The position numbers and the translations under genes are program-made. The notes beneath the pieces were generated by a model. That model was not told where the DNA came from. It saw nothing but the letters and a program-made list of their open reading frames with translations, and searched no databases. From positions 1-43,005 of the forward strand of contig JAFLDE010000026.1 in NCBI GenBank assembly GCA_017302655.1: 43,005 nucleotides of DNA, given 5' to 3'. The stretch is from Burkholderiales bacterium (GTDB lineage Bacteria; Pseudomonadota; Gammaproteobacteria; Burkholderiales; Burkholderiaceae_C). Of the stretch, positions 19,470 to 28,640 are shown one piece after another; the stretch's first letter is position 1, and every line of letters starts with the position of its first letter.

Positions 19470-20155
19470 TCCGGGCGGTCTCGCTCGACCTGGACGACAC
19501 CCTGTGGCCCATCGCCCCGGTCATCCAACGCGCGGAACTTGAGTTGCATGCCTGGTTCGCTCGGCACGCACCGGCCACGGCGGCGCGGTTCACCGTCGGA
19601 GAGCTGATCCGGCTGCGCGACGCCATCGCGCTGGAGTTCCCCGACCGTTCGCACGACTTCACCTGGATGCGCCACCTGGCCATCGAACGGGCGCTGGTCG
19701 CAGCGGGCGACGACCCGGACCTCGCCGAGCCCGCTTTCGAGTGCTTCTTCCACTGGCGCCAGCAGGTGACCCTCTTCGACGACGCGCTGCCCGCGCTCGA
19801 ACGCCTGGCGGCCAAGTTCCCGCTGATCGGGCTGACCAATGGCAATGCCGACTGGCGCGCCATCGGGTTGGCCCCATTCTTCAGCCACGGTGTGCTGGCG
19901 GCGCGTGAGTTCGGTCAAGGCAAGCCGCATGCGGCTTTCTTCCATGCGGCTTGCCGCGAAGTTGGCTGCGCGCCCCATGAAGTACTGCACGGCGGCGACG
20001 ACTGGCATCTGGATGTGGAAGGCGCGCACGACGCCGGGCTGCCGGCCGCCTGGGTGCGGCGCCCGCACCACCCGGATCGCCCGCCCGAGAGCCTTGCCCA
20101 GGCGCTGCACGAGGTGAGCGACTTGCTGCAGCTCGCTGATCTACTCGGCGCGTAG
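19466..20155 (+). CDS. HAD-superfamily hydrolase (HAD-IA type)
   Basis: Likely small-molecule phosphatase. Motif I is LDLDDTLWP (two catalytic Asp, near residues 8-10), motif II GLTNGNAD, motif III Lys in FGQGKPHAAFF and motif IV GGDDWHLDVEGAHDAG, so the catalytic set is complete. A helical cap occupies about residues 17-95. The GTG start overlaps the corA stop (GTGA), so it is translationally coupled to corA. The last 15 bp overlap the end of the convergent NTF2-like gene. Substrate unknown. Confidence 0.88.
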   Translation: MIRAVSLDLDDTLWPIAPVIQRAELELHAWFARHAPATAARFTVGELIRLRDAIALEFPDRSHDFTWMRHLAIERALVAAGDDPDLAEPAFECFFHWRQQVTLFDDALPALERLAAKFPLIGLTNGNADWRAIGLAPFFSHGVLAAREFGQGKPHAAFFHAACREVGCAPHEVLHGGDDWHLDVEGAHDAGLPAAWVRRPHHPDRPPESLAQALHEVSDLLQLADLLGA

Positions 20156-20554
20156 CCGTTTCTTCAGCCAGCGCAGCACGCTGCCCAGCAGCGGCAGCTT
20201 CTCCCACAACTCCTCGGCGGCGTCCCAATAGTCGCGGTGGTAGATCACCTTGCCGTCGGGCGCGAACTTCAGGTGACTGCTGCCGTGGATGCGCAGGCTG
20301 CGACCGCGCACGCGGAAGCTGAAGTCCCAGGTCAGGAAGGCCTGATCGCCGGCGCCAAAGGCTTCGCGCACCTCGAAGCGCGGGGTCTCCAAGCTTTCGA
20401 ACATGTGCGCGAATATGCGTTGCACCTTGGCCAGACCGCGCACCTCGTTGAAGGGATCTCGGAAGTAAGCGTGCGCGTCGTAAAGCTCACCCATGCGTGC
20501 GACATCGGCGGCGCTCAGGTTCTCGTAGAAGCGGCGCAGGGCATCCAGGTTCAC
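20141..20554 (-). CDS. NTF2-like/SnoaL-fold protein
   Basis: 137-aa protein with a nuclear-transport-factor-2-like fold: MNLDALRRFYENLSAADVARMGELYDAHAYFRDPFNEVRGL is typical of the SnoaL-like branch, followed by WDFSFRVRGRSLRIHGSSHL and HRDYWDAAEELWEKLP. The final basic LRWLKKRLRAE tail could contact membrane. It is the last gene of a nine-gene chain, with a GTG start overlapping the SDR stop by 4 bp. Relatives occur beside CFA-type methyltransferase, DUF1365 and amine oxidase-like genes in light- or singlet-oxygen-responsive clusters. Catalytic role unknown. Confidence 0.82.
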   Translation of the reverse strand: MNLDALRRFYENLSAADVARMGELYDAHAYFRDPFNEVRGLAKVQRIFAHMFESLETPRFEVREAFGAGDQAFLTWDFSFRVRGRSLRIHGSSHLKFAPDGKVIYHRDYWDAAEELWEKLPLLGSVLRWLKKRLRAE

Positions 20555-21324
20555 AGCCGGGTTCCTTTGCGAACGGTGGCGAAGTACAGGGCGTCAGGCA
20601 GGTGGCGCAGCAGGCCCACCAGGCGCGTGAAGCGCTTGGGGAAGTGAATGGAGAACTCCCCCGCCGCGTAGCCGGCCAGCATGGCCTCGGCGGCCTGTTC
20701 GGGCTGGATGAGCGCGGGCATGTCGAAGCGGTTCTGCGCCGTCATCGGCGTCTCCACGAAGCCGGGGTTCACCACACTGACCGCCAACCCCCTGGGCTGC
20801 AGGTCCAAGTAGAGGGTCTCGGCCAGATGAATCAGCGCCGCCTTCGGTGGACCATAGCCAAGGGCCTGTGGCAAGCCACGGTATCCGGCCACGCTGCTCA
20901 CCAGACTCAAGTGCCCATGACCCTGGCGAAGGAGGGCGGGCAGTGCGGCATCCAGCCAATGCAACGCGCCCTGGTAGTTCACCTGCCACTGGTGGTTCGC
21001 ATTGGCCAGGTCGAAGGCGTCGGCTCGCATCGGCGTATAGGTGCCGGCGCAGTACAGGGTGAAGTCCAGCGAGCTGTGATGACGCTGCAGTTCAGCAAAG
21101 GCTTGCTTCACCGAGCCTGCATCGAGCACGTCCAGCGGCAGGGCCAAGCTTCCGGGGTGCGCATCGGCAAAGGCCTGCAGGGCCTGGGCGCTGCGCGCAC
21201 TCACGGCCACGCGGGCGCCGCGCTCGTGCAGCGCCTTGGCCAGTGCGGCGCCGATGCCGGTGCTGGCGCCCACGAGCCAGACCGTCTTGCCTCGCCAGTC
21301 GCGAATCTTGGGATTGAGGCTCAT
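20551..21324 (-). CDS. Short-chain dehydrogenase/reductase
   Basis: NAD(P)-dependent oxidoreductase of the classical SDR family. WLVGASTGIGAALAKAL is the dinucleotide-binding motif (residues about 16-32), YCAGTY stands in for NNAG, SLVSSVAGYRG gives the catalytic Ser, and GYGPPKAALIHLAETL gives Tyr-x3-Lys. The C-terminal end (257 aa in total) has a basic FPKRFTRLVGLLRHLP segment that may be membrane-associated. It overlaps DUF3833 upstream and the NTF2-like gene downstream by 4 bp each. Substrate unknown; a lipid-derived carbonyl fits the operon but is inferred. Confidence 0.9.
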   Translation of the reverse strand: MSLNPKIRDWRGKTVWLVGASTGIGAALAKALHERGARVAVSARSAQALQAFADAHPGSLALPLDVLDAGSVKQAFAELQRHHSSLDFTLYCAGTYTPMRADAFDLANANHQWQVNYQGALHWLDAALPALLRQGHGHLSLVSSVAGYRGLPQALGYGPPKAALIHLAETLYLDLQPRGLAVSVVNPGFVETPMTAQNRFDMPALIQPEQAAEAMLAGYAAGEFSIHFPKRFTRLVGLLRHLPDALYFATVRKGTRL

Positions 21325-21866
21325 GGCTTCATGAACGACAGCGTCACCTCGCCAAGGCGGAAGCCGAACTTGCGCATCTCGGCCTTGTTCAGCATCACAC
21401 GCTCGTCCACCAAGTACATCCAGTCGTCGAACTGCACCTCGTAGACCTTGCCGTCCACGGGGAGCTTCAGCGTGTAGGCCCAGCGCAGCGCGTTGCCGGC
21501 CGCTTGCCCCTGTGCCTCGCCCACCACGTCGTCAGCGCGCCCGGTGTAGCGGCCCTGGCCGTGGTGCGTGAGCCGCCAGACGCGCTTCTCCTTGCGCCCA
21601 TCGCTGTAGACAAAGTCCTCGTCGAGCACGCCTTGTTCGCCCTTCCAGCTGCCCTGCATGCGCACCACGAAGCGCGCCTTCACCACGCCGTTGCGGTCGG
21701 TGAAGATGCCGTAGCCGGTCAGCGGCCCGTTGAAGTAGGTCTTGAGGTCGAGTGCTGGCTTCTCGGCTGCGTAGTCCTGCACGTCCGGCGAGGCGCAGCC
21801 CGCCAGCAGAAAGGCGGCCAGAAGGGCCGTGCGTCGCGCCAAGGGTCGGTTGATGCAGGCGTTCAT
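21321..21866 (-). CDS. DUF3833-family lipoprotein
   Basis: 181-aa lipoprotein: the N-terminus RRTALLAAFLLAGCASPDV contains lipobox LAGC. The mature part has DLKTYFNGPLTGYGIFTDRNG, then beta-strands VKARFVVRMQGSWKG and LDEDFVYSDGRKEKRVWRL, ending YEVQFDDWMYLVDERVMLNK, the recognisable DUF3833 pattern of a lipocalin-like barrel. The ATG at 21866 gives the compact signal peptide and overlaps the MFS gene by 4 bp. The family tends to occur in this same cluster type; function unproven, lipid binding plausible. Confidence 0.85.
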   Translation of the reverse strand: MNACINRPLARRTALLAAFLLAGCASPDVQDYAAEKPALDLKTYFNGPLTGYGIFTDRNGVVKARFVVRMQGSWKGEQGVLDEDFVYSDGRKEKRVWRLTHHGQGRYTGRADDVVGEAQGQAAGNALRWAYTLKLPVDGKVYEVQFDDWMYLVDERVMLNKAEMRKFGFRLGEVTLSFMKP

Positions 21867-23110
21867 GTCAGGGACTCCCGAAAAGTGTGTCGAGCTGGGC
21901 CGCGTAGCAGCAGCTGCCAGAGCAGCGCCATGGCGCCGAGCTTGAGGACGCAGGGCAGCAGCGCATAAACGGCGGACAGCGCCTGCAGCGCCTGAGGGTC
22001 GCGTGCGCCGTCGCTGTAGCCGAGGAATTGCAAGAGCGGCAGCGCCAGCCCGGCGGCCAGTGCCAGGTTGAGCTTGGTGACCGCGTTCCACCAACCGAAG
22101 AAGGCGCCCTCGGCACGGCCGGCCAGCTCTGCGTGCTGGATGACGCGCGTCAGCAGCGCCGGCGGGATGGCCAGGTCGGCGCCCGCCGCCACGCCGGTGG
22201 CGATGCAGATCGCCACGAAAGCGATCCCGTCGCCTTTGCCCAGCAGCGCGGCCCAGACGAAACTGATCACCGCCAATCCCATGCCCATCAGCCAGGCTCG
22301 GCCCTGCCCCACGCGCGCCACGGCGCGCAGCCACAGCGGCATCGAGGCCGCCGCCGCAGCGAAGTAGCTGACGAGGTACAGGGCCTCGTACTGCGGGGTT
22401 TGCAGACGGTCGCGCACGAAGAACAGCAACACCGTGGCCGGGATGGCGGCGGCGATGCCGTTCAGCGCGTACACCGCCAGCAGTCTTTGGAAGCCCGGTG
22501 TGCGCCAGGGCAGACCCCAGGCGAGTCGCCCACTATGAGTCTGCGGCGCCGGCAAGGGACTGCGCAGCAGCGCCGCCAGGCCGGCCACCAACACGAGGGC
22601 CAGCACAGCGGTGGTAAGGCCCCAACCGCTGGTGCTGATGAGCACGCTGGCCACCAGCACGCCCACCAGCGCCAGCCCTTCGCGCCAGGCCATCAACCGC
22701 GTCTGCGCCATCGCATCGCCCCCCAGGCGCGCACCCCAGGCCTGGTGGGTCACGCCCACCACGCTGAAACTGATGTAGCCGAGCACCAGCATCGCCGCCG
22801 CCCACGCCAGCAGGGCTTCGCCGCGCAGCGGCGGGAAGAACAGGCCCGTGAAGGCCCCGAACATCAGCAGCGCCGCCCCGCACAGCACGGGCGTCACCCG
22901 CTTCGCACGCAGCCAGCCGTCGCACCAGCGGCCGATCAGCGGGTCCAGCGCGGCGTCCACAAAGCGGGCGAACAGCAGCAGCGCCCCCAGCTGAGCCAGC
23001 GGCACGCCGTAACTGCCCGCGTAGTGGGCTGGCAGGCTCACGTAGAGCGGCAGCGCCAGGAAGGCGAGCGGCAGGCCGAGCAGCCCATAGCGCCAGGGAT
23101 GGGCGTTCAC
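21863..23110 (-). CDS. MFS transporter (GPH/MelB-like)
   Basis: 415-aa polytopic membrane protein with about 12 hydrophobic helices. The N-terminus GLLGLPLAFLALPLYVSLPAHYAG and the loop FARFVDAALDPLIGRWCDG match the glycoside-pentoside-hexuronide cation symporter branch. GTG start overlaps the chalcone isomerase-like gene by 4 bp. Similar carriers occur in singlet-oxygen-responsive clusters of alphaproteobacteria, where the cargo is not known to me. Sugar transport should not be assumed, as no other sugar gene is in this operon; a lipid or lipid precursor is an alternative. Confidence 0.85.
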   Translation of the reverse strand: MNAHPWRYGLLGLPLAFLALPLYVSLPAHYAGSYGVPLAQLGALLLFARFVDAALDPLIGRWCDGWLRAKRVTPVLCGAALLMFGAFTGLFFPPLRGEALLAWAAAMLVLGYISFSVVGVTHQAWGARLGGDAMAQTRLMAWREGLALVGVLVASVLISTSGWGLTTAVLALVLVAGLAALLRSPLPAPQTHSGRLAWGLPWRTPGFQRLLAVYALNGIAAAIPATVLLFFVRDRLQTPQYEALYLVSYFAAAAASMPLWLRAVARVGQGRAWLMGMGLAVISFVWAALLGKGDGIAFVAICIATGVAAGADLAIPPALLTRVIQHAELAGRAEGAFFGWWNAVTKLNLALAAGLALPLLQFLGYSDGARDPQALQALSAVYALLPCVLKLGAMALLWQLLLRGPARHTFRESLT

Positions 23111-23631
23111 AGGCCCAGCAGCTGCCTGCGCAGCCCCGGCTCGGAACTCTGCGGCGCCAGCCAGATGCCGAAGAAGCGGCGGCTGAAGGCGGCGTTGAAG
23201 CGCGGGCCGCGCGGCGCGCCGTTGAACCAGAAGCGCGCCCCTTCAACGGGGTCGTGCAGACCGCTCAGGCGGTCGCCGTCCTTCACGTCGGGAAAGGCCT
23301 CGCGCATGCCCGCCAGCCAGGCCTGGGCGTCGGCGTCCGCCACGGCGCCCTGCCGGCGCATCTCTTCCAGGGACCGCTCGGCGATGGCCGCGCCCTTGAG
23401 TGAGCGCTGGTAGCGCAGTTGCAGCAGCAAGGGCTGCGCCGCCCAGCCTTCAGCCTGCACAGGCTCGGGGGCGTTCAGGCTGATCTCGTAGATGGCCAGA
23501 CCCAGAAAACGCATGCGCCCCTGGCCGCGCGTGGGCCAGGTGGGTTCGGCCCGCAGGCCTGCGCTCAAGGCGAAGCCTGCTGCGGCCAGCAGGCACTCAC
23601 GCCGGCCGACGCAAGGTGAACTGGCAGACAT
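23107..23631 (-). CDS. Chalcone isomerase-like exported protein
   Basis: 174-aa protein with an N-terminal signal (RRECLLAAAGFALSAGLRAE). RMRFLGLAIYEISLNAPEP and LLLQLRYQRSLKGAAIAERSLEEM, followed by DVKDGDRLSGLHDP, ARFWFNG and FFGIWLAP, match the chalcone isomerase-like family, which in bacteria has no flavonoid role and resembles fatty-acid-binding folds. The ATG at 23631 lies inside the preceding CFA-type gene, a 35-nt overlap; later starts would remove the signal peptide. Likely periplasmic. Fatty-acid or lipid binding is an inference from the fold and the neighbouring methyltransferase. Confidence 0.82.
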   Translation of the reverse strand: MSASSPCVGRRECLLAAAGFALSAGLRAEPTWPTRGQGRMRFLGLAIYEISLNAPEPVQAEGWAAQPLLLQLRYQRSLKGAAIAERSLEEMRRQGAVADADAQAWLAGMREAFPDVKDGDRLSGLHDPVEGARFWFNGAPRGPRFNAAFSRRFFGIWLAPQSSEPGLRRQLLGL

Positions 23632-24838
23632 CGCAATTTCCGGTGGCAAAGGCCGCCTCGCAGTAGGCCAGGTAGAACTCCCAGCAGCGGATGAACTTCT
23701 CGTCGAAGCCCTGCTCGCGCACGGCGCCCTCATGACGCAGGAAGTCGGCGCGCCAGCGCTTGAGGGTTTCGGCGTAGCTGAGGCCGAAGGCGAAGCGCTC
23801 CTGCACCTCCAGCCCGGCACGGCGTGCCTCGGCCTCGAAGCGCTCGGGGCTGGGCAGCAGGCCGCCCGGGAAGATGTACTGCTGGATGAAGTCGGTGCCG
23901 CGGCTGTAGCGTTCCCAGAGCGCGTCCTGCAGCGTGATGCTCTGCACGCAAGCCAGGCCGCCGGGTTTGAGGCTGCGCTTGAGGGCCTGGAAATAGTCGC
24001 CCCAGTACTCGCGGCCGACGGCCTCGAACATCTCGATGCTGACCACCGCATCGAAGCCTTGCTCGGGCAGGTCGCGGTAATCCTGCAGACGAAGTTCGGT
24101 CTGGCTGTGCAGGCCAGCCGCTTGAAGGCGTTGCCTCGCGTAGGCCAACTGCTCGTCGGACAGGGTCAGGCCCAGCACCTGGGCGTTGAAATCCCGCGCC
24201 GCCATCTCGGCCACCGCGCCCCAGCCACAGCCGATCTCCAGCAGGCGCTGCCCGGGCTGCAACGCCACGGCGCGTAGCGCGCGTGCCATCTTGGCCTGCT
24301 GGGCCTCGTACATCGACTGGCTGCGACCTTCCTCGAACCAGGCGCTGCTGTAGTTCATGCTCGAGTCGAGCCAGAGGCGGTAGAAGGCATTGCCCAGGTC
24401 GTAATGGGCCACGATGTTGCGCCGGCTGCCTTGGCGGGTGTTGCGGTTCAGCAGGTGCTTGAGGCGGTACAGCAGCGCGCCCCACCAGCGGCCGTACACC
24501 GCGGCTTCCAGCGCATTGCGGTTGTGCAGGAAGAGGGTCAGCAAGGCTGCCAGATCAGGGCTGCTCCAGTGCCCCTGGATATAGCTCTCACCGAGGCCGA
24601 TGTCACCGCTCTTCAGCGTGGCTTCGGCCATCGCCCAGTCGTGGATGCGCAGCGCCGCGCGCTCGCCACCGCCTTCGGCATGGCCGTTCCGCTGGCCCAG
24701 GGCCGCGGTGCTGCCGTCGGGCAATTGCAGATCCAGCCGGCCATGCTGCAGGCGTGACAGCAGGGTCATGGCGGTGCGTGCCGCGCGTGGGGCATCGGCG
24801 GGCAGGCTCAGGCTGCCGTTCAGGACATCGGTGCTCAT
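23597..24838 (-). CDS. CFA-synthase-family fatty-acyl methyltransferase
   Basis: SAM-dependent enzyme acting on the double bond of phospholipid acyl chains. The 413-aa protein shows an N-terminal domain, a SAM-binding motif LLEIGCGWGAVAEMAA (about residues 199-214), VVSIEMFEAVGREYW, the family stretch FIQQYIFPGGLLPS and a C-terminal YLAYCEAAF whose Cys aligns with the conserved active-site Cys of CFA synthase. It could form cyclopropane rings or, like UfaM of Rhodobacter sphaeroides, methylate acyl chains on the way to furan fatty acids. DUF1365 and amine oxidase-like genes precede it, the usual trio. ATG start overlaps DUF1365 by 4 bp. Confidence 0.9.
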   Translation of the reverse strand: MSTDVLNGSLSLPADAPRAARTAMTLLSRLQHGRLDLQLPDGSTAALGQRNGHAEGGGERAALRIHDWAMAEATLKSGDIGLGESYIQGHWSSPDLAALLTLFLHNRNALEAAVYGRWWGALLYRLKHLLNRNTRQGSRRNIVAHYDLGNAFYRLWLDSSMNYSSAWFEEGRSQSMYEAQQAKMARALRAVALQPGQRLLEIGCGWGAVAEMAARDFNAQVLGLTLSDEQLAYARQRLQAAGLHSQTELRLQDYRDLPEQGFDAVVSIEMFEAVGREYWGDYFQALKRSLKPGGLACVQSITLQDALWERYSRGTDFIQQYIFPGGLLPSPERFEAEARRAGLEVQERFAFGLSYAETLKRWRADFLRHEGAVREQGFDEKFIRCWEFYLAYCEAAFATGNCDVCQFTLRRPA

Positions 24839-25614
24839 GAGGAGGTGCTTCGTGTCAGCGGGTGAAGGGGGGCATCAGGCTTGCTGAACCAGGGCACGCG
24901 CTTGAGCCAGAGGCGCAGCGCGTGCCAGTGGATGCGGGCCACAACCATCAGGCTGTGCAGGGGCTGCGCCAGCGCGGCGCGGCGCAGCGCTCGGTGGCTG
25001 AGCGGTTGCAGCAGGCCGGACAGGCTGGTCTGCAGCAGCGGGTGGCCGTCGGCGTCGTCCAGATCCACGCGCGCCAGGCTGCGCGGGGCTTCGCCTTGCA
25101 GGCGCAAGAAGAAACGGAAGCGGTAGCGCCCAGCCACCTCGGCGAAGGGCGACACATGGAAGACCTTGCGCGCCTGCACTTCAGCGCCGCTGGCCAGGCC
25201 GTCGCCCTGCAGCAGGTAGACGTGCTTCTCGCCGAAGGTGTTGTGCACCTCGGCCAGCACCAGCGCCAGCGAGCCGTCGGCGCGGAGGCCGTACCAGAAG
25301 CTCACGGGCTTGAACGCGTGGCCGGCCACGCGCGGGAAGCATTGCAGCCAGAGCTCCCCGCCATCGAGTGCTTGCAGCAGGCCCTCGCGTTGCAGCAGGC
25401 CTTCCGCCCAGGCCAGTGCGTCAGGGCCGCCCTCGCCATGGTCGGCATCGTGGAAGCTCATCCAGGCGCGGCGGTTGCGCGGCAGCACGGGGTCGGGCTG
25501 CTCGCGCAGACGGCGCAGGGGCAGCAGGAAGAAGCAGGCCGGGTAGGCGAAGCCATGGCGATGCGGCGCCAGCCGCTGGTGGCGCACCGGGCCTTGGCCG
25601 AGCAGGGCGTTCAC
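24835..25614 (-). CDS. DUF1365-family protein
   Basis: 259-aa protein with the recognisable DUF1365 pattern: RHQRLAPHRHGFAYPACFFL at the N-terminus, then PRVAGHAFKPVSFWYGLR, LAEVHNTFGEKHVYLL and KVFHVSPFAEVAGRYRF. The family almost always sits between an FAD amine oxidase-like gene and a CFA-type methyltransferase, as here, and is thought to take part in acyl-chain modification; the exact reaction is not settled as far as I know. GTG start overlaps the amine oxidase stop by 4 bp. A C-terminal basic stretch HWHALRLWLKRVPWF may touch the membrane. Confidence 0.88.
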   Translation of the reverse strand: MNALLGQGPVRHQRLAPHRHGFAYPACFFLLPLRRLREQPDPVLPRNRRAWMSFHDADHGEGGPDALAWAEGLLQREGLLQALDGGELWLQCFPRVAGHAFKPVSFWYGLRADGSLALVLAEVHNTFGEKHVYLLQGDGLASGAEVQARKVFHVSPFAEVAGRYRFRFFLRLQGEAPRSLARVDLDDADGHPLLQTSLSGLLQPLSHRALRRAALAQPLHSLMVVARIHWHALRLWLKRVPWFSKPDAPLHPLTRSTSS

Positions 25615-27041
25615 GAGGCTCGCACCTCGCTGAAGGCTCTTGCGGCCTGCAGGCCGGAAAGCAGACCGTCTTCATGGAAGCCATAGCGTGTCCAGGCGCC
25701 GGCGAACCAGACGCCGCCCTGGCCCTGCAGCGCCGGCAGGCGACGCTGCGCAGCCACGGCCCCTTCGTCGAACACCGGGTGGGCGTAGTCGAACTCGCGC
25801 AGCACCTGCTTGGGCTCACGCAGCGGGTTCATGCTCACCACCACCGGCTGGCTCCAGGGCAGGGGCTGCAGCTCGTTGATGAGGTAGTGCAGACAGACCG
25901 GCCGCTGCGCCGCGCGCACCTGTCCGTCGGTCTCGAAGTTCCAGGCCGCCCAGGCGCTGCGGCGCCGCGGCAACTGTCCGGCGTCCAGGTGGAGCACGGC
26001 CCGGTTGCGCTGGTAGCGGATGGCGCCGAGCAGCTCGCGCTCCGGTGCCGAGGCGTCGGACAGCAGGGCCAGGGCCTGGTCGCTGTGGCAGGCCAGGATG
26101 ACGGCGTCGAAATCCTCGTGCCGGCCCCCGTCCAGCCACAGGCGGGCGCCTCCCTTGGGCTGGCGCTGCACGGCGCGCACGGGGCTGGCTTCGCGCACAT
26201 CGGACAGGCGTGCGCGCAGGCGCTGCACGTACTCGCGGGACCCACCCTTCACCGTCAACCATTGCGGGCGCTCGTTGACCTGCAGCAGGCCGTGGTTGTG
26301 GCAGAAGCGAATCAGCGTGCCGACCGGGAAGTCCAGCATCTGCCCCGCCGGGCAGGACCAGATGCAGGCAATCATCGGCAGCAGGTAGGCGTCGCGGAAC
26401 ATCGCGCTGAAGCGGTGTTCGCGCAGGAAGTCCGCCAAGGGCTGCTGCAGTGCGGCGTCCTCGCCGCGTTCGGCCAAGGCCGTGGTCAGGCGGTTGAAGC
26501 GCAGCAGCTCGATGAGCATGCGCAGGAAGGCAGGCCGCAGCAGGTTGCGGCGCTGAGCGAACACGCTGTTCAGGTCGTTGCCGGCCCATTCCAGGCCCAG
26601 GCCGCGGTGCTGCACCGAAAAGCCCATGCGGCTGGGTGCCAGTTCCACGCCCAGGTCATCGAAGAGACGCAGCAGCAGCGGGTAGGTGCGCACGTTGCAC
26701 ACCAAGAATCCGGTGTCCACGCCGTGGCGTACGCCGTCCAGTTCCACGTCCACCGTGTTGGCGTGCCCTCCCAGGCGCGGCTCGGCTTCGAACACGCTGA
26801 CTTGCGCGCGCCCTTGCAAGGCCCAGGCGGCGCCCAGTCCGCTGATGCCACCGCCCACCACCGCCACGCGCTGCGCCGCCTGACCGGTCAGTGCCGGCGC
26901 GCCGCCATCCAGCCAGCGCAGCAGGTCGCCGGCGTGGGCCTGTGCTTCGGCGGTGGCCCGGTCGGTGGCGGGCGCGGCGGCCGTGTCGCGCGGGCCGACG
27001 AAACCTGCCATGCGCGTGCTGGTGGGGCGTGCGTCTTTCAC
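25611..27041 (-). CDS. FAD-dependent amine oxidase-like protein
   Basis: 476-aa flavoprotein. After a low-complexity ~55-residue lead, VAVVGGGISGLGAAWAL is the FAD-binding motif and VFEAEPRLGGHANTV the following GG motif; the C-terminus has VWFAGAWTRYGFHEDGLLSG, the second FAD contact. It belongs to the branch found next to DUF1365 and CFA-type methyltransferases. In Rhodobacter a flavin-dependent desaturase (UfaD) acts on methylated acyl chains in furan fatty acid synthesis; whether this protein is its equivalent needs alignment. The GTG at 27041 overlaps the peroxidase stop by 4 bp; an internal ATG 10 codons later would also be possible. Confidence 0.88.
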   Translation of the reverse strand: MKDARPTSTRMAGFVGPRDTAAAPATDRATAEAQAHAGDLLRWLDGGAPALTGQAAQRVAVVGGGISGLGAAWALQGRAQVSVFEAEPRLGGHANTVDVELDGVRHGVDTGFLVCNVRTYPLLLRLFDDLGVELAPSRMGFSVQHRGLGLEWAGNDLNSVFAQRRNLLRPAFLRMLIELLRFNRLTTALAERGEDAALQQPLADFLREHRFSAMFRDAYLLPMIACIWSCPAGQMLDFPVGTLIRFCHNHGLLQVNERPQWLTVKGGSREYVQRLRARLSDVREASPVRAVQRQPKGGARLWLDGGRHEDFDAVILACHSDQALALLSDASAPERELLGAIRYQRNRAVLHLDAGQLPRRRSAWAAWNFETDGQVRAAQRPVCLHYLINELQPLPWSQPVVVSMNPLREPKQVLREFDYAHPVFDEGAVAAQRRLPALQGQGGVWFAGAWTRYGFHEDGLLSGLQAARAFSEVRAS

Positions 27042-27640
27042 AGCAGTTTCTCGATGGCCTTGACGAGGGTGTCGCTCTCCGGCGTGGTCATGGAGCCGAA
27101 GGCGGCCGCCGGCTTGCCATCGCGCCCGACGAGGTACTTGTGGAAGTTCCAGCGTGGAGGGCTGTCGGTGGCCTGGGCCAGCTCAGCGAACAAGGGGTTG
27201 GCGCCCGGCAGGCTGGGCTTGACCACCGACTTGGCAAACATCGGGAACTTCACGTTGAAGGTGTTCTCGCAGAACTCGGCGATCTGCTTGCTGCTGCCAG
27301 GCTCCTGCTCGCCAAAGTCGTTGGAGGGAAAGCCGAGCACCACCAAGCCGCGTGCGCCGTAGCGGCGGTTCAGAGCTTCGAGCCCCTGGTACTGCTTGGT
27401 GAAGCCGCAGAAGCTGGCGGTGTTCACCACCAGCACCACCTTGCCCGCGTACTGGCAGAGCGACTGCGGGGCCTCATCCTGCAGGCGCGGGAAGCTCTTA
27501 TTCAGCAAGGGCGGGCAGGCAGCTGCAGCGCTGGGCGCTGCGGCTGTCGGAGCCGATGGTTGAGCCTGTGCAGTCATGGAACAGACTATACAGGCCAAAA
27601 CAAGACTGAGCAGTCTCGCTTGATTTGCAGGGCTTTTCAT
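27038..27640 (-). CDS. Periplasmic glutathione peroxidase-family protein
   Basis: 200-aa thiol peroxidase of the glutathione peroxidase family. It begins with a signal peptide (hydrophobic LLSLVLACIVCSM, AQA near residue 26), then an Ala/Pro linker. Catalytic features: VVLVVNTASFCGFTKQYQGL with peroxidatic Cys, GFPSNDFGEQEPGS with Gln, and PRWNFHKYLVGRDG with Trp-Asn. The enzyme is a Cys, not selenocysteine, form and probably uses a thioredoxin-like reductant or reduces lipid peroxides. ATG 27640 is chosen; an upstream start at 27664 would run through the operator. It leads the nine-gene chain and is divergent from the B12-binding regulator. Confidence 0.88.
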   Translation of the reverse strand: MKSPANQARLLSLVLACIVCSMTAQAQPSAPTAAAPSAAAACPPLLNKSFPRLQDEAPQSLCQYAGKVVLVVNTASFCGFTKQYQGLEALNRRYGARGLVVLGFPSNDFGEQEPGSSKQIAEFCENTFNVKFPMFAKSVVKPSLPGANPLFAELAQATDSPPRWNFHKYLVGRDGKPAAAFGSMTTPESDTLVKAIEKLL

Positions 27641-27654
27641 TTGTCTTGGGCAAA
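27640..27654. promoter_or_regulatory. Operator-like dyad at the peroxidase start (site 1)
   Basis: TTTGTCTTGGGCAAA, an imperfect dyad (TTTGTC-N3-GGCAAA), touching the peroxidase start codon. It is the reverse complement of site 2 with one mismatch in 15. A plus-strand -35 candidate for the regulator gene (TTGGGC, 27646-27651) lies inside it, so binding here would block that promoter. Confidence 0.6.
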
Positions 27655-27670
27655 AGTTAAACACACGGCA

Positions 27671-27698
27671 AAATTACAGCACACGCCCCCGAAGTCAA
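27671..27698 (-). promoter_or_regulatory. Candidate promoter of the nine-gene operon
   Basis: On the minus strand TTGACT (27698-27693) and TAATTT (27676-27671) are 16 bp apart, giving a start near 27664 and a leader of about 24 nt that contains site 1. A plus-strand promoter TTGGGC-N17-CAAAAT (27646-27674) for the regulator overlaps it. Found by eye. Confidence 0.5.
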
Positions 27699-27703
27699 CA
27701 AGC

Positions 27704-27718
27704 TTTGTCCAAGACAAA
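27704..27718. promoter_or_regulatory. Operator-like dyad at the regulator start (site 2)
   Basis: TTTGTCCAAGACAAA is a perfect dyad (TTTGTC-CAA-GACAAA) ending one base before the regulator ATG and 5 bp upstream of the operon -35 hexamer. With site 1 it frames the shared promoter region, each site adjoining one start codon. Confidence 0.65.
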
Positions 27719-27719
27719 C

Positions 27720-28640
27720 ATGAGTCAAGCCGACACCTCCGCCTGGTTGAACATCGCTGCCGTGGAGCGGGACACGGGCCTGTCCAAGGATCTGCTGCGC
27801 GTCTGGGAACGGCGCTACGGCTTTCCGCAGCCCGAGCGTGATGCCAATGGAGTACGTCTTTACCCGGCCGAGCAGATGCAGCGCCTGCGGGACATCAAGC
27901 GGCTGCTCGATGCCGGGCAGCGCCCGCATCAGGTGGTCGGGCTACCTGCTGCGGACCTGCAGCAACGTCTGTCGCTGTTGCAGGCCCAGGCCGTGCCGCG
28001 TGGCGTGACCACCGTGGCTGACTTCGACGAGCTGCTGCAACCCCTGCTGGCGCATGACGCCACGGCCTTGCACGGGGCGCTGCAGTCGGAGCTGCTTCGC
28101 CGCGGCCTGGCCGCCTATGTGCAGGAGGTGTTGGCGCCGCTCATTCACCGCGTCGGGGTGTTGTGGAGCGAAGGCCGGGTGCGCATCCACGAGGAGCACC
28201 TGTTCTCCGAGGTGGTGCAGCAGCAGCTTCGGCGGGCCATCGGCATGCTGCCCGTCGACGCCGATGCCCGGCCGCGCGTGCTGCTCAGCACCCTGCCGGG
28301 CGAGGAGCATGGCCTGGGCCTCCTGATGGTGCAGGCCCTGCTGTCGCTGGAGAACTGCCCTTGCGTTTCGCTAGGCCTGCAGACGCCAGTGGCTGAGCTG
28401 GTCGAAGCCGCCCAGCGCCAGGGTGCCGATGTGCTGGCGCTGAGCTGCTCGGCCTATGCCCGCGCGAATGGGCTTTCGCAGGACCTCACGCGCCTGCGCG
28501 AGGCCCTGCCGGTGGAGGTGGAACTCTGGGTGGGGGGCGGCGCCCCGCACCTTCGCCGCTTGCGGCCGGTGCCGGGCCTGCGCGTCATCGACGGCTTGCA
28601 GGCCCTGGCGCCGGCGGTGGCGCAGTGGCGCAAACGCTGA
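27720..28640 (+). CDS. CarH/LitR-type B12-binding MerR regulator (photoreceptor)
   Basis: 306-aa transcription factor: MerR-type winged helix (residues 8-75, with RVWERRYGFP at 27-36), a helical B12-cap domain (about 100-175) and a Rossmann B12-binding domain (about 185-300). The light-sensing signature of the CarH/LitR family is complete: Trp149-x9-Glu159-His160, and the cobalamin motif Glu195-x-His197-x-x-Gly200, whose His is the lower axial ligand. In the family, dark adenosylcobalamin-bound protein represses and light releases it. The ATG at 27720 is used rather than a TTG at 27705 that lies within the operator. The gene is divergent from the nine-gene operon and ends directly against the ABC permease stop. 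Light response is inferred from motifs. Confidence 0.88.
   Translation: MSQADTSAWLNIAAVERDTGLSKDLLRVWERRYGFPQPERDANGVRLYPAEQMQRLRDIKRLLDAGQRPHQVVGLPAADLQQRLSLLQAQAVPRGVTTVADFDELLQPLLAHDATALHGALQSELLRRGLAAYVQEVLAPLIHRVGVLWSEGRVRIHEEHLFSEVVQQQLRRAIGMLPVDADARPRVLLSTLPGEEHGLGLLMVQALLSLENCPCVSLGLQTPVAELVEAAQRQGADVLALSCSAYARANGLSQDLTRLREALPVEVELWVGGGAPHLRRLRPVPGLRVIDGLQALAPAVAQWRKR

Follow-up and report, generated by a model that had tools for sequence, protein, structure and literature searches.

A class I LitR/CarH-type regulator faces a predicted furan-fatty-acid operon across paired candidate operators in a Burkholderiales bacterium

The stretch of DNA analysed here, called the window, is a contig of 43,005 nucleotides (JAFLDE010000026.1) from the Burkholderiales bacterium assembly GCA_017302655.1. 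It carries nine minus-strand genes, chained from 27640 down to 20141, and a divergent gene, litR, that encodes a MerR-type regulator with vitamin B12-binding domains (Table 1). An earlier, sequence-only reading had described this arrangement, and every gene was found again on re-reading. Its account of the junctions also held: seven of the eight are 4-bp overlaps and the remaining one, between the CFA-type methyltransferase gene and the chalcone-isomerase-like gene, is 35 bp long (in order GTGA, GTGA, ATGA, the 35-bp overlap, GTGA, ATGA, ATGA, GTGA). So did its family assignments, which agree with Pfam (GSHPx, Amino_oxidase, DUF1365, CMAS, Chalcone_3, MFS_2, DUF3833, adh_short and SnoaL_2). 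The peroxidase probably starts at the ATG at 27640 (in-frame alternative GTG at 27664) and the regulator probably at the ATG at 27720 (alternative TTG at 27705). We propose, with a probability of about 0.72, that the locus is a light-operated module in which a repressor of the class I LitR/CarH type, which light releases, governs the synthesis of furan fatty acids together with a periplasmic peroxidase, rather than carotenoid synthesis.

Table 1. Genes, candidate operators and predicted promoters of the locus (window positions).
Feature	Position	Strand	Remarks
Class I LitR/CarH-type MerR regulator (litR)	27720..28640	+	MerR_1, B12-binding_2 and B12-binding domains
Operator O2, TTTGTCCAAGACAAA	27704..27718		One base short of the LitR ATG; start-to-start distance from O1 64 bp
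Predicted operon promoter	27671..27698	-	TTGACT (27698-27693), 16 bp, TAATTT (27676-27671); -10 box lies on the LitR -10 box
Predicted LitR promoter	27647..27675	+	TGGGCA (27647-27652), 17 bp, AAAATT (27670-27675)
Operator O1, TTTGTCTTGGGCAAA	27640..27654		First base in the peroxidase start codon; overlaps the predicted LitR -35 box
Glutathione peroxidase (GPX), probably periplasmic, operon gene 1	27038..27640	-	PF00255, E 1.3e-29; signal-peptide-like N-terminus MKSPANQARLLSLVLACIVCSMTAQAQ, by eye
UfaD-like FAD-dependent fatty-acyl desaturase	25611..27041	-	PF01593, E 4.6e-26
UfaO-like DUF1365 protein, proposed furan-forming oxygenase	24835..25614	-	PF07103, E 1.5e-69
UfaM-like S-adenosylmethionine-dependent methyltransferase (CFA-type)	23597..24838	-	PF02353, E 1.5e-86
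Chalcone-isomerase-like (CHI) protein	23107..23631	-	PF16036, E 7.6e-9; overlaps ufaM by 35 bp
GPH/MFS_2 carrier	21863..23110	-	PF13347, E 3.6e-43
DUF3833 protein, probable lipoprotein	21321..21866	-	PF12915, E 1.1e-71; lipobox-like LLAGC, by eye
Short-chain dehydrogenase/reductase (SDR)	20551..21324	-	PF00106, E 3.1e-35
NTF2-like (SnoaL_2) protein, final gene	20141..20554	-	PF12680, E 1.1e-19

The gap between the divergent start codons is only 79 bp and comes with two copies of the palindrome TTTGTCCNNGACAAA, here called O1 and O2, which are the only sites in the window within two mismatches of it. Genome-wide (4.43 Mb in 203 contigs), the pattern TTTGYCNNNGRCAAA is found at three places, namely O1, O2 and a site that lies between genes recognised by eye as uvrB and iscR; its reversed control pattern occurs once per strand. 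Among loci of the same bacterial family, searched over a zone of 2.4 kb around the upstream end of ufaD, a site within two mismatches of TTTGTCCNNGACAAA is present at 17 of the 20 that carry LitR, the window included, and at none of 20 that do not (Fisher 1.3e-8, uncorrected for kinship; two of the latter, G030 and G037, belong to genomes having LitR elsewhere or at a contig edge). The background in this comparison was 2 sites in 453 kb.

The consensus had been derived from these family loci, and a separate test set was therefore needed. It consisted of the best 80 of at least 582 confirmed matches and is thus not a census; 3 of the 80 were removed because they duplicated family genomes, and 4 of the 77 named loci that remained were excluded for having less than 700 bp upstream. 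The operator was found at 63 of the 73 held-out LitR loci tested, with a density of 98 sites in 56 kb versus 30 in 1.20 Mb of the same contigs; thirty palindromes with shuffled arms gave a mean of 0.8 sites and a maximum of 4. Eight of the nine background sites within one mismatch proved to lie inside litR, and the ninth is 53 bp before ufaD in L230, a locus without the operator at the usual place but with an exact site ahead of ufaD. The operator is found also at loci of Azoarcus, which belongs to another order, of Eleftheria and of a Comamonas plasmid. It accompanies LitR even where the ufa genes are missing, as in G051, where LitR and an exact operator face GPX alone, and in Eleftheria, where LitR is divergent from a fasciclin gene.

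According to passages of the papers cited here and below, class I LitR/CarH proteins control carotenoid genes from three or four tandem 11-bp direct repeats, nAnnTnnACAn (PMC8156234). A run of three such repeats stands beside the palindromes in L201, L218 and L251, the three loci examined of eight Rhodocyclales-type loci with a 74-bp spacing; the promoter of Thermus thermophilus carH, used as a control, also shows a run of three. The new sites are therefore linked to CarH-like binding. Known operator types were considered and rejected: the intergenic region has no TGTACA, the hexamer of class II operators, and the one TATACA hexamer lies inside the peroxidase coding region. An 18-nt direct repeat, head to tail and 78% identical (copies at 27649 and 27667, spanning 27649-27684), overlaps the right half of O1.

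The regulator itself combines a MerR helix-turn-helix with both B12-binding domains (PF02607 and PF02310), the domain set of class I LitR/CarH, and it aligns with T. thermophilus CarH (PDB 5c8d) at E 2.8e-28. The two motifs said to define CarH homologues, Wx9EH and ExHxxG (PMC8156234), are intact in it, as WSEGRVRIHEEH and EEHGLG respectively. Both are found in 17 of 20 family LitRs, the window included, and Wx9EH in 18 of the 20. The presence of PF02310 and the intergenic region without TGTACA set the protein apart from the class II LitRs PplR and PmlR. Among the matches listed, the nearest named LitR is from an Inhella metagenome bin, at 62%, which points to a Burkholderiales bacterium that is probably Inhella-like. 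The genome encodes a PduO-type cobalamin adenosyltransferase. It also encodes a second MerR protein, without a B12 domain and a few kilobases from photolyase-like genes (L106, G000:C126), which may be another LitR class.

The lipid genes are those of a known pathway. In Rhodobacter sphaeroides UfaM (CFA-type), UfaD (an FAD desaturase) and UfaO (DUF1365) convert phospholipid-bound cis-vaccenate to a furan fatty acid, which gives protection from singlet oxygen; RSP1087-1089, in the ufaD-ufaO operon, are dispensable for its synthesis, and in Rhodopseudomonas palustris ufaD, ufaO and ufaM are RPA2571, 2570 and 2569 (PMC7380195). The window encodes all three protein types together, in the R. palustris order. 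Compared with proteins encoded beside rpoE-chrR in the alphaproteobacterium Qingshengfaniella, its UfaD shows 41% identity and its UfaO 38%, and its UfaD is 40% identical to a Pseudoalteromonas counterpart in the same setting. The predicted UfaO structure is confident (predicted local distance difference test, pLDDT, 90; model m65e0a469275f, window 24835-25614), and its fold has no match in the PDB at E below 0.001. Across 42 sequences three of its histidines (His12, His59 and His131) never vary and two more (His153 and His229) hardly do, which suggests a metal site. The product of the operon is probably a furan fatty acid. The sequence-only reading had proposed a light-linked protection of membrane lipids; this fits in outline and can be sharpened to a furan fatty acid, a full set of B12-photoreceptor motifs and a specific operator, while the control of transcription by light or B12 is something that we infer.

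A DUF1365 match was found in 45 of 60 family genomes, our own included, and neighbourhoods were read for 39 of the 44 relatives (the other five being G038 and G022, which were read later, and G056, G046 and G003). The sequence-only reading had called for a search for the same gene order, and this search showed UfaD-UfaO-UfaM-CHI-GPH-DUF3833-SDR-NTF2, whole or with few gaps, in the neighbourhoods of these 39 relatives. The order recurs in Azoarcus sp. KH32C as well, whose chalcone-isomerase gene and CFA-type gene share a 32-bp overlap. Such recurrence, in the relatives and in this strain, makes the chain more than a chance arrangement, and the operon is so common among relatives that its gene content is not new but ordinary for the group. 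LitR is encoded in 25 of the 60 genomes, again with our own, and 23 of the 25 also have the DUF1365 gene. Of the 64 named loci with 3.5 kb or more upstream, all found by their LitR, 59 have UfaD divergent from LitR at a distance of no more than 2.6 kb, and 30 have an adjacent GPX. The leading peroxidase and the missing photolyase, taken earlier as points of difference, are an ordinary feature and an ordinary variation within the group. The accompanying statement that photolyase, rpoE and chrR are absent holds beside the operon, as judged by eye from a list of open reading frames with the flanking genes unscanned, but photolyase-family genes do lie elsewhere in the genome. The ChrR model TIGR02451 gave no match in the whole genome (0/1), with the control positive in Caulobacter.

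The upstream neighbour of the operon differs between loci. It may be LitR, in some cases together with a leading GPX, or else GPX alone, a TetR gene or another neighbour, as judged by clustering open frames under a codon-position filter. Ten neighbour proteins were scanned and included two TetR proteins and no RpoE or ChrR; most neighbours are unscanned, and ChrR near some LitR-less loci is possible. At L042, L047, L048 and L073 the lipid operon is divergent from a TetR-family gene rather than from LitR (TetR_N in L042 and L048, the other two by clustering). In L117 (G030:C17:130001-145000) LitR lies beside a corA-like gene as it does in the window (75% identical) and the lipid operon is elsewhere; that locus has no operator within two mismatches, and in G030 one site is found 46 bp before iscR. 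A FolE2-type GTP cyclohydrolase gene stands between GPX and ufaD in L055 and L063, which represent two genera, and folE is light-induced in Pseudomonas (PMC9758184). A gene for a Blc-type lipocalin is beside LitR in L067, and one for a protein with weak FA_desaturase_2, AurF and ferritin-like matches (L036:13187-14050 and relatives) adjoins LitR or the operon in many relatives.

The spacing of the paired operators follows a pattern. The distance between adjacent copies is 63 bp at seven loci of the family (L036, L037, L040, L041, L043, L046 and L066), close to the 64 bp of the window, and 75 (L049), 53 (L055), 31 (L063) and 21 bp (L068) at others. Held-out pairs no more than 110 bp apart fall at 30-33 (5 pairs), 53-54 (3), 62-64 (11), 74 (8) and 96 bp (1); the distance is 74 in Azoarcus, 62 in Eleftheria and 21 in Comamonas endophytica, where one copy has three mismatches, and G038 has two pairs of 74. 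The paired copies in relatives are close to whole helical turns apart. With kinship ignored, the 28 adjacent held-out pairs have a phase coherence of R = 0.93 at a period of 10.5 bp (five adjacent pairs beyond 110 bp, at 122, 129, 134, 183 and 418, were left out of the test), and the coherence of the six class values 21, 31, 53, 63, 74 and 96 was reached in 87 of 100000 random draws.

Promoters were predicted for the 62-64 bp class, which comprises 19 loci. At 14 of them the best promoter for LitR places its -35 box inside O1, with a 17-bp spacer, and at 11 the best operon promoter has a -35 box that starts three bases inside O2; at these 11 the two -10 boxes coincide. Mean best sigma70 scores over the 19 loci were 8.7 (LitR side) and 8.3 (operon side) of 12 versus 5.2 in the flanks, a control that is imperfect in that the flanks are mostly coding; 20 start positions were scanned on the operon side and 12 on the LitR side and in the flanks. 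In the window itself the scan preferred TTGTTG, 17 bp and TGTAAT (8/12) for the operon, to which the TTGACT version of Table 1 is equal by hand count. On the LitR side its best was a 16-bp spacer with CAAAAT; the -10 box there is weak and is TATATT-like in many relatives.

Copies of the operator are found beyond the intergenic gap. A match occurs within 22 of 102 anchored litR genes. Eleven of these were counted as third copies (L207, L210, L219, L226, L243, L244, L248, L067, L068, L182 and L221); they lie about 350 bp from the pair, in an otherwise unconserved linker where they encode L-S-K/R/T-T, at +197 (nine), +182 (one) or +215 (one) from the Trp codon of the WERRYG-type motif. At these sites it seems to be the DNA rather than the protein that is conserved. 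The other eleven were rejected as candidates: they have two mismatches and encode FVQD(T/I), a conserved protein stretch, and may reflect protein constraint.

In our own genome the exact operator between uvrB and iscR (G000:C1:63843; locus L033, 1501) is 110 bp before iscR. Sites within two mismatches in the 400 bp upstream of iscR are present in 6 of 24 LitR-bearing genomes versus none of 34 LitR-less ones (Fisher 0.0033), a link that is suggestive only because two of the six are of the same genus and the positions differ; it is a hint that iron-sulphur assembly may belong to the LitR regulon. A search for exact matches outside the locus, with G038, G043 and G051 left aside, gave both-strand matches upstream of iscR in our own genome, G021, G030 and G012, and either shortly ahead of methyl-accepting chemotaxis genes or at their start in G014, G053 and G057. 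Five further matches were tied to no gene: four on one strand only (three in G012, one in G045) and one on both strands in the LitR-less G035. In G038 an operator pair precedes a photolyase gene that is followed by uvrB and iscR (the last two named by eye). The chemotaxis-gene operators, from three genera, are at L108:6313, L109:1365 and L110:4548, and in Comamonas endophytica (L182:4009-8501) LitR lies between two methyl-accepting chemotaxis genes with a BLUF gene near. A link between B12 light sensing and motility is possible.

How such a module might work can be set out conditionally, the regulation by light and all the chemistry being read from sequence and from the precedent of CarH, a repressor that binds in the dark with adenosylcobalamin (AdoCbl) and is released by light (PMC8156234). 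In the dark, AdoCbl-LitR oligomers would bind O1 and O2 jointly from a single face of the helix and keep the two promoters closed; with same-face operators over overlapping promoters, a single oligomer would silence litR and the operon alike. Light (UV, blue or green, by analogy with CarH) would break the Co-C bond, the oligomer would fall apart and both promoters would fire. UfaM would then methylate a phospholipid-bound monounsaturated chain, UfaD would desaturate it and UfaO would insert oxygen, yielding a furan fatty acid able to quench singlet oxygen, and GPX may remove lipid peroxides or hydrogen peroxide.

A number of observations weigh against this proposal. Three of the 20 family LitR loci have no operator (L038, with a three-mismatch copy, L044 and L065), and 10 of the 73 held-out loci have none within two mismatches, four of these being Polaromonas loci in which LitR, GPX and the operon are all present. 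LitR and the operon lie apart in G030, and the operon of that genome faces a gene clustered as TetR-type. L065 has lost Wx9EH, L044 has a short LitR frame, and in L043 the second motif ends in Ala instead of Gly. The LitR of the window scores 128.2 bits against the 400-bit cut-off of the NCBI CarH equivalog (NF052513) and is therefore filed only in the class I LitR/CarH family. The tandem repeat of the CarH type is missing between 27,601 and 27,740, where no two units within one mismatch are 11 bp apart; the window has two isolated exact 11-bp units, at 27654 and 27691. It also fits the promoter layout of its relatives only loosely, its own -10 boxes being weak. A BtuR-type adenosyltransferase was looked for in the genome and not found, and the supply of AdoCbl therefore rests on the PduO type or on uptake. 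Finally, the R. sphaeroides and R. palustris enzymes were matched by family and gene order, not letter by letter.

Some of these points bear on other explanations of the locus. The palindromes might be the sites of another regulator, or promoter furniture with LitR adjacent by chance, as the four Polaromonas loci that keep LitR without them, and their overlap with the predicted -35 boxes, would allow, the operator role being assigned from sequence. Against this, they are absent from all 20 LitR-less loci of the same operon, they go with LitR where the ufa genes are missing (G051 and Eleftheria), and their further copies inside litR and near other genes occur in LitR-bearing lineages; we consider this explanation very improbable. 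It is unlikely, though less remote, that LitR senses B12 or redox state rather than light, so that the operon would answer to cobalamin or to oxidative state. AdoCbl binding alone would make LitR B12-dependent, and a MerR-type blue-light regulator of Vibrio cholerae has been modelled as responsive to reactive oxygen species (PMC5241685), but the window and 17 of 20 LitRs have both CarH photoreceptor motifs unbroken, and a similar gene set is light-induced in Pseudomonas (PMC9758184). The chemistry has its own rival, in which the CFA-type gene encodes a conventional cyclopropane synthase and the lipids made by the operon carry cyclopropane or other modifications. The families that this gene product matches best in Pfam and NCBIfam are indeed cyclopropane synthases, and cyclic acids are formed also in Escherichia coli expressing Halomonas ufaM (PMC12089945). 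Of the three residues that hold the catalytic bicarbonate in E. coli Cfa, Glu239, His266 and Tyr317 (PMC11387697), the first and third are retained in the UfaM-like homologues. The His266 position is Gln in all 103 aligned homologues of the window enzyme (all distinct, from these loci), however, and Cys139 is replaced by Ser or Ala in 101 of the 103; in addition the gene follows ufaD-ufaO as in R. palustris, and the NCBIfam scores are far below the Cfa cut-offs. The change from His266 to Gln favours UfaM-type methylation over cyclopropanation, in a comparison that includes no characterised UfaM sequence, and we regard a plain cyclopropane synthase as quite unlikely.

The geometry of the operators is a separate question. 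A light-breakable DNA loop may form in which AdoCbl-LitR tetramers bridge two same-face operators (three in some Comamonadaceae) and lock the face-to-face promoters, in some lineages also those of iscR or of chemotaxis receptors; this we put forward tentatively, as a possibility with the odds somewhat against it. The paired sites may instead act independently, without a loop or cooperative contact, and owe their whole-turn spacing to promoter geometry, for which the balance of the evidence is about even. In the 62-64 bp class the promoters and the positions of O1 and O2 go together, which could fix the distance. Promoter geometry accounts less readily for spacing classes near 2, 3, 5, 6, 7 and 9 turns, with a coherence met so rarely among random draws, or for a third site some 350 bp away inside litR at 11 loci.

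What appears to be new at this locus is the proposed switch, an operator pair and a class I LitR placed on a probable furan-fatty-acid operon of known gene content. In the passages of the literature cited, class I LitR/CarH proteins are mainly regulators of carotenoid genes, and furan-lipid genes answer to ChrR or to a class II LitR driven by a LOV protein; the present locus would join the two. Among the open PMC papers listed, none was recognised as describing this operator or a furan-lipid operon under a class I LitR; an earlier mention is possible. The same lipid module is found under or beside several regulators, B12-LitR, class II LitR with LOV, sigmaE-ChrR and TetR genes, and the locus provides a defined operator sequence, a rule for its spacing and a predicted regulon of small size for what is possibly a B12-based light switch with a two-site geometry. 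If the loop is real, it would be a DNA-binding mode of the CarH family that differs from the tandem direct repeats described until now, and B12 would serve as a light switch for membrane lipid chemistry across the Betaproteobacteria.

The comparison with LitR- and ChrR-controlled gene sets that the sequence-only reading had drawn fits what was found. In Pseudomonas putida and P. mendocina the class II LitRs PplR and PmlR control a light-induced polycistron of nine genes from two binding sites around the promoter; like the operon of the window, it consists of overlapping or closely spaced genes and includes ufaM, an FAD oxidoreductase and an SDR. It differs in its regulator, which is without the second B12 domain, takes its signal from a short LOV protein and has the operator TGTACA-N12-TGTACA, and in its region, which has a photolyase gene and, among the genes named in those passages, no peroxidase (PMC9758184). 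SigmaE-ChrR (ECF11) drives ufaD, ufaO and their partners, and the Shewanella RpoE2 regulon includes the periplasmic glutathione peroxidase PgpD (PMC4336711, PMC7380195), a pairing of furan-fatty-acid genes with a glutathione peroxidase that the window shares (PMC4336711). Records of Pseudoalteromonas and Qingshengfaniella have rpoE-chrR annotated beside such operons. In R. sphaeroides, Shewanella and Vibrio the trigger is the turnover of ChrR in response to singlet oxygen, whereas the sensor of the window would be B12 and light, in a genome without a ChrR match. The CarH of T. thermophilus and the LitR of Bacillus megaterium resemble the LitR of the window in having a MerR domain, a four-helix bundle with a B12 domain, Wx9EH, ExHxxG and an operator over the promoter. 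They differ in controlling carotenoid genes from direct repeats, where the window has a furan-fatty-acid operon and a pair of 15-bp palindromes, and three Rhodocyclales-type promoters have both layouts. Repression loops of the lac type use multiple operators, and in the window group there are likewise two or three copies at helical-turn distances, one of them inside a coding sequence; unlike those loops, one bridged by a LitR oligomer would be breakable by light.

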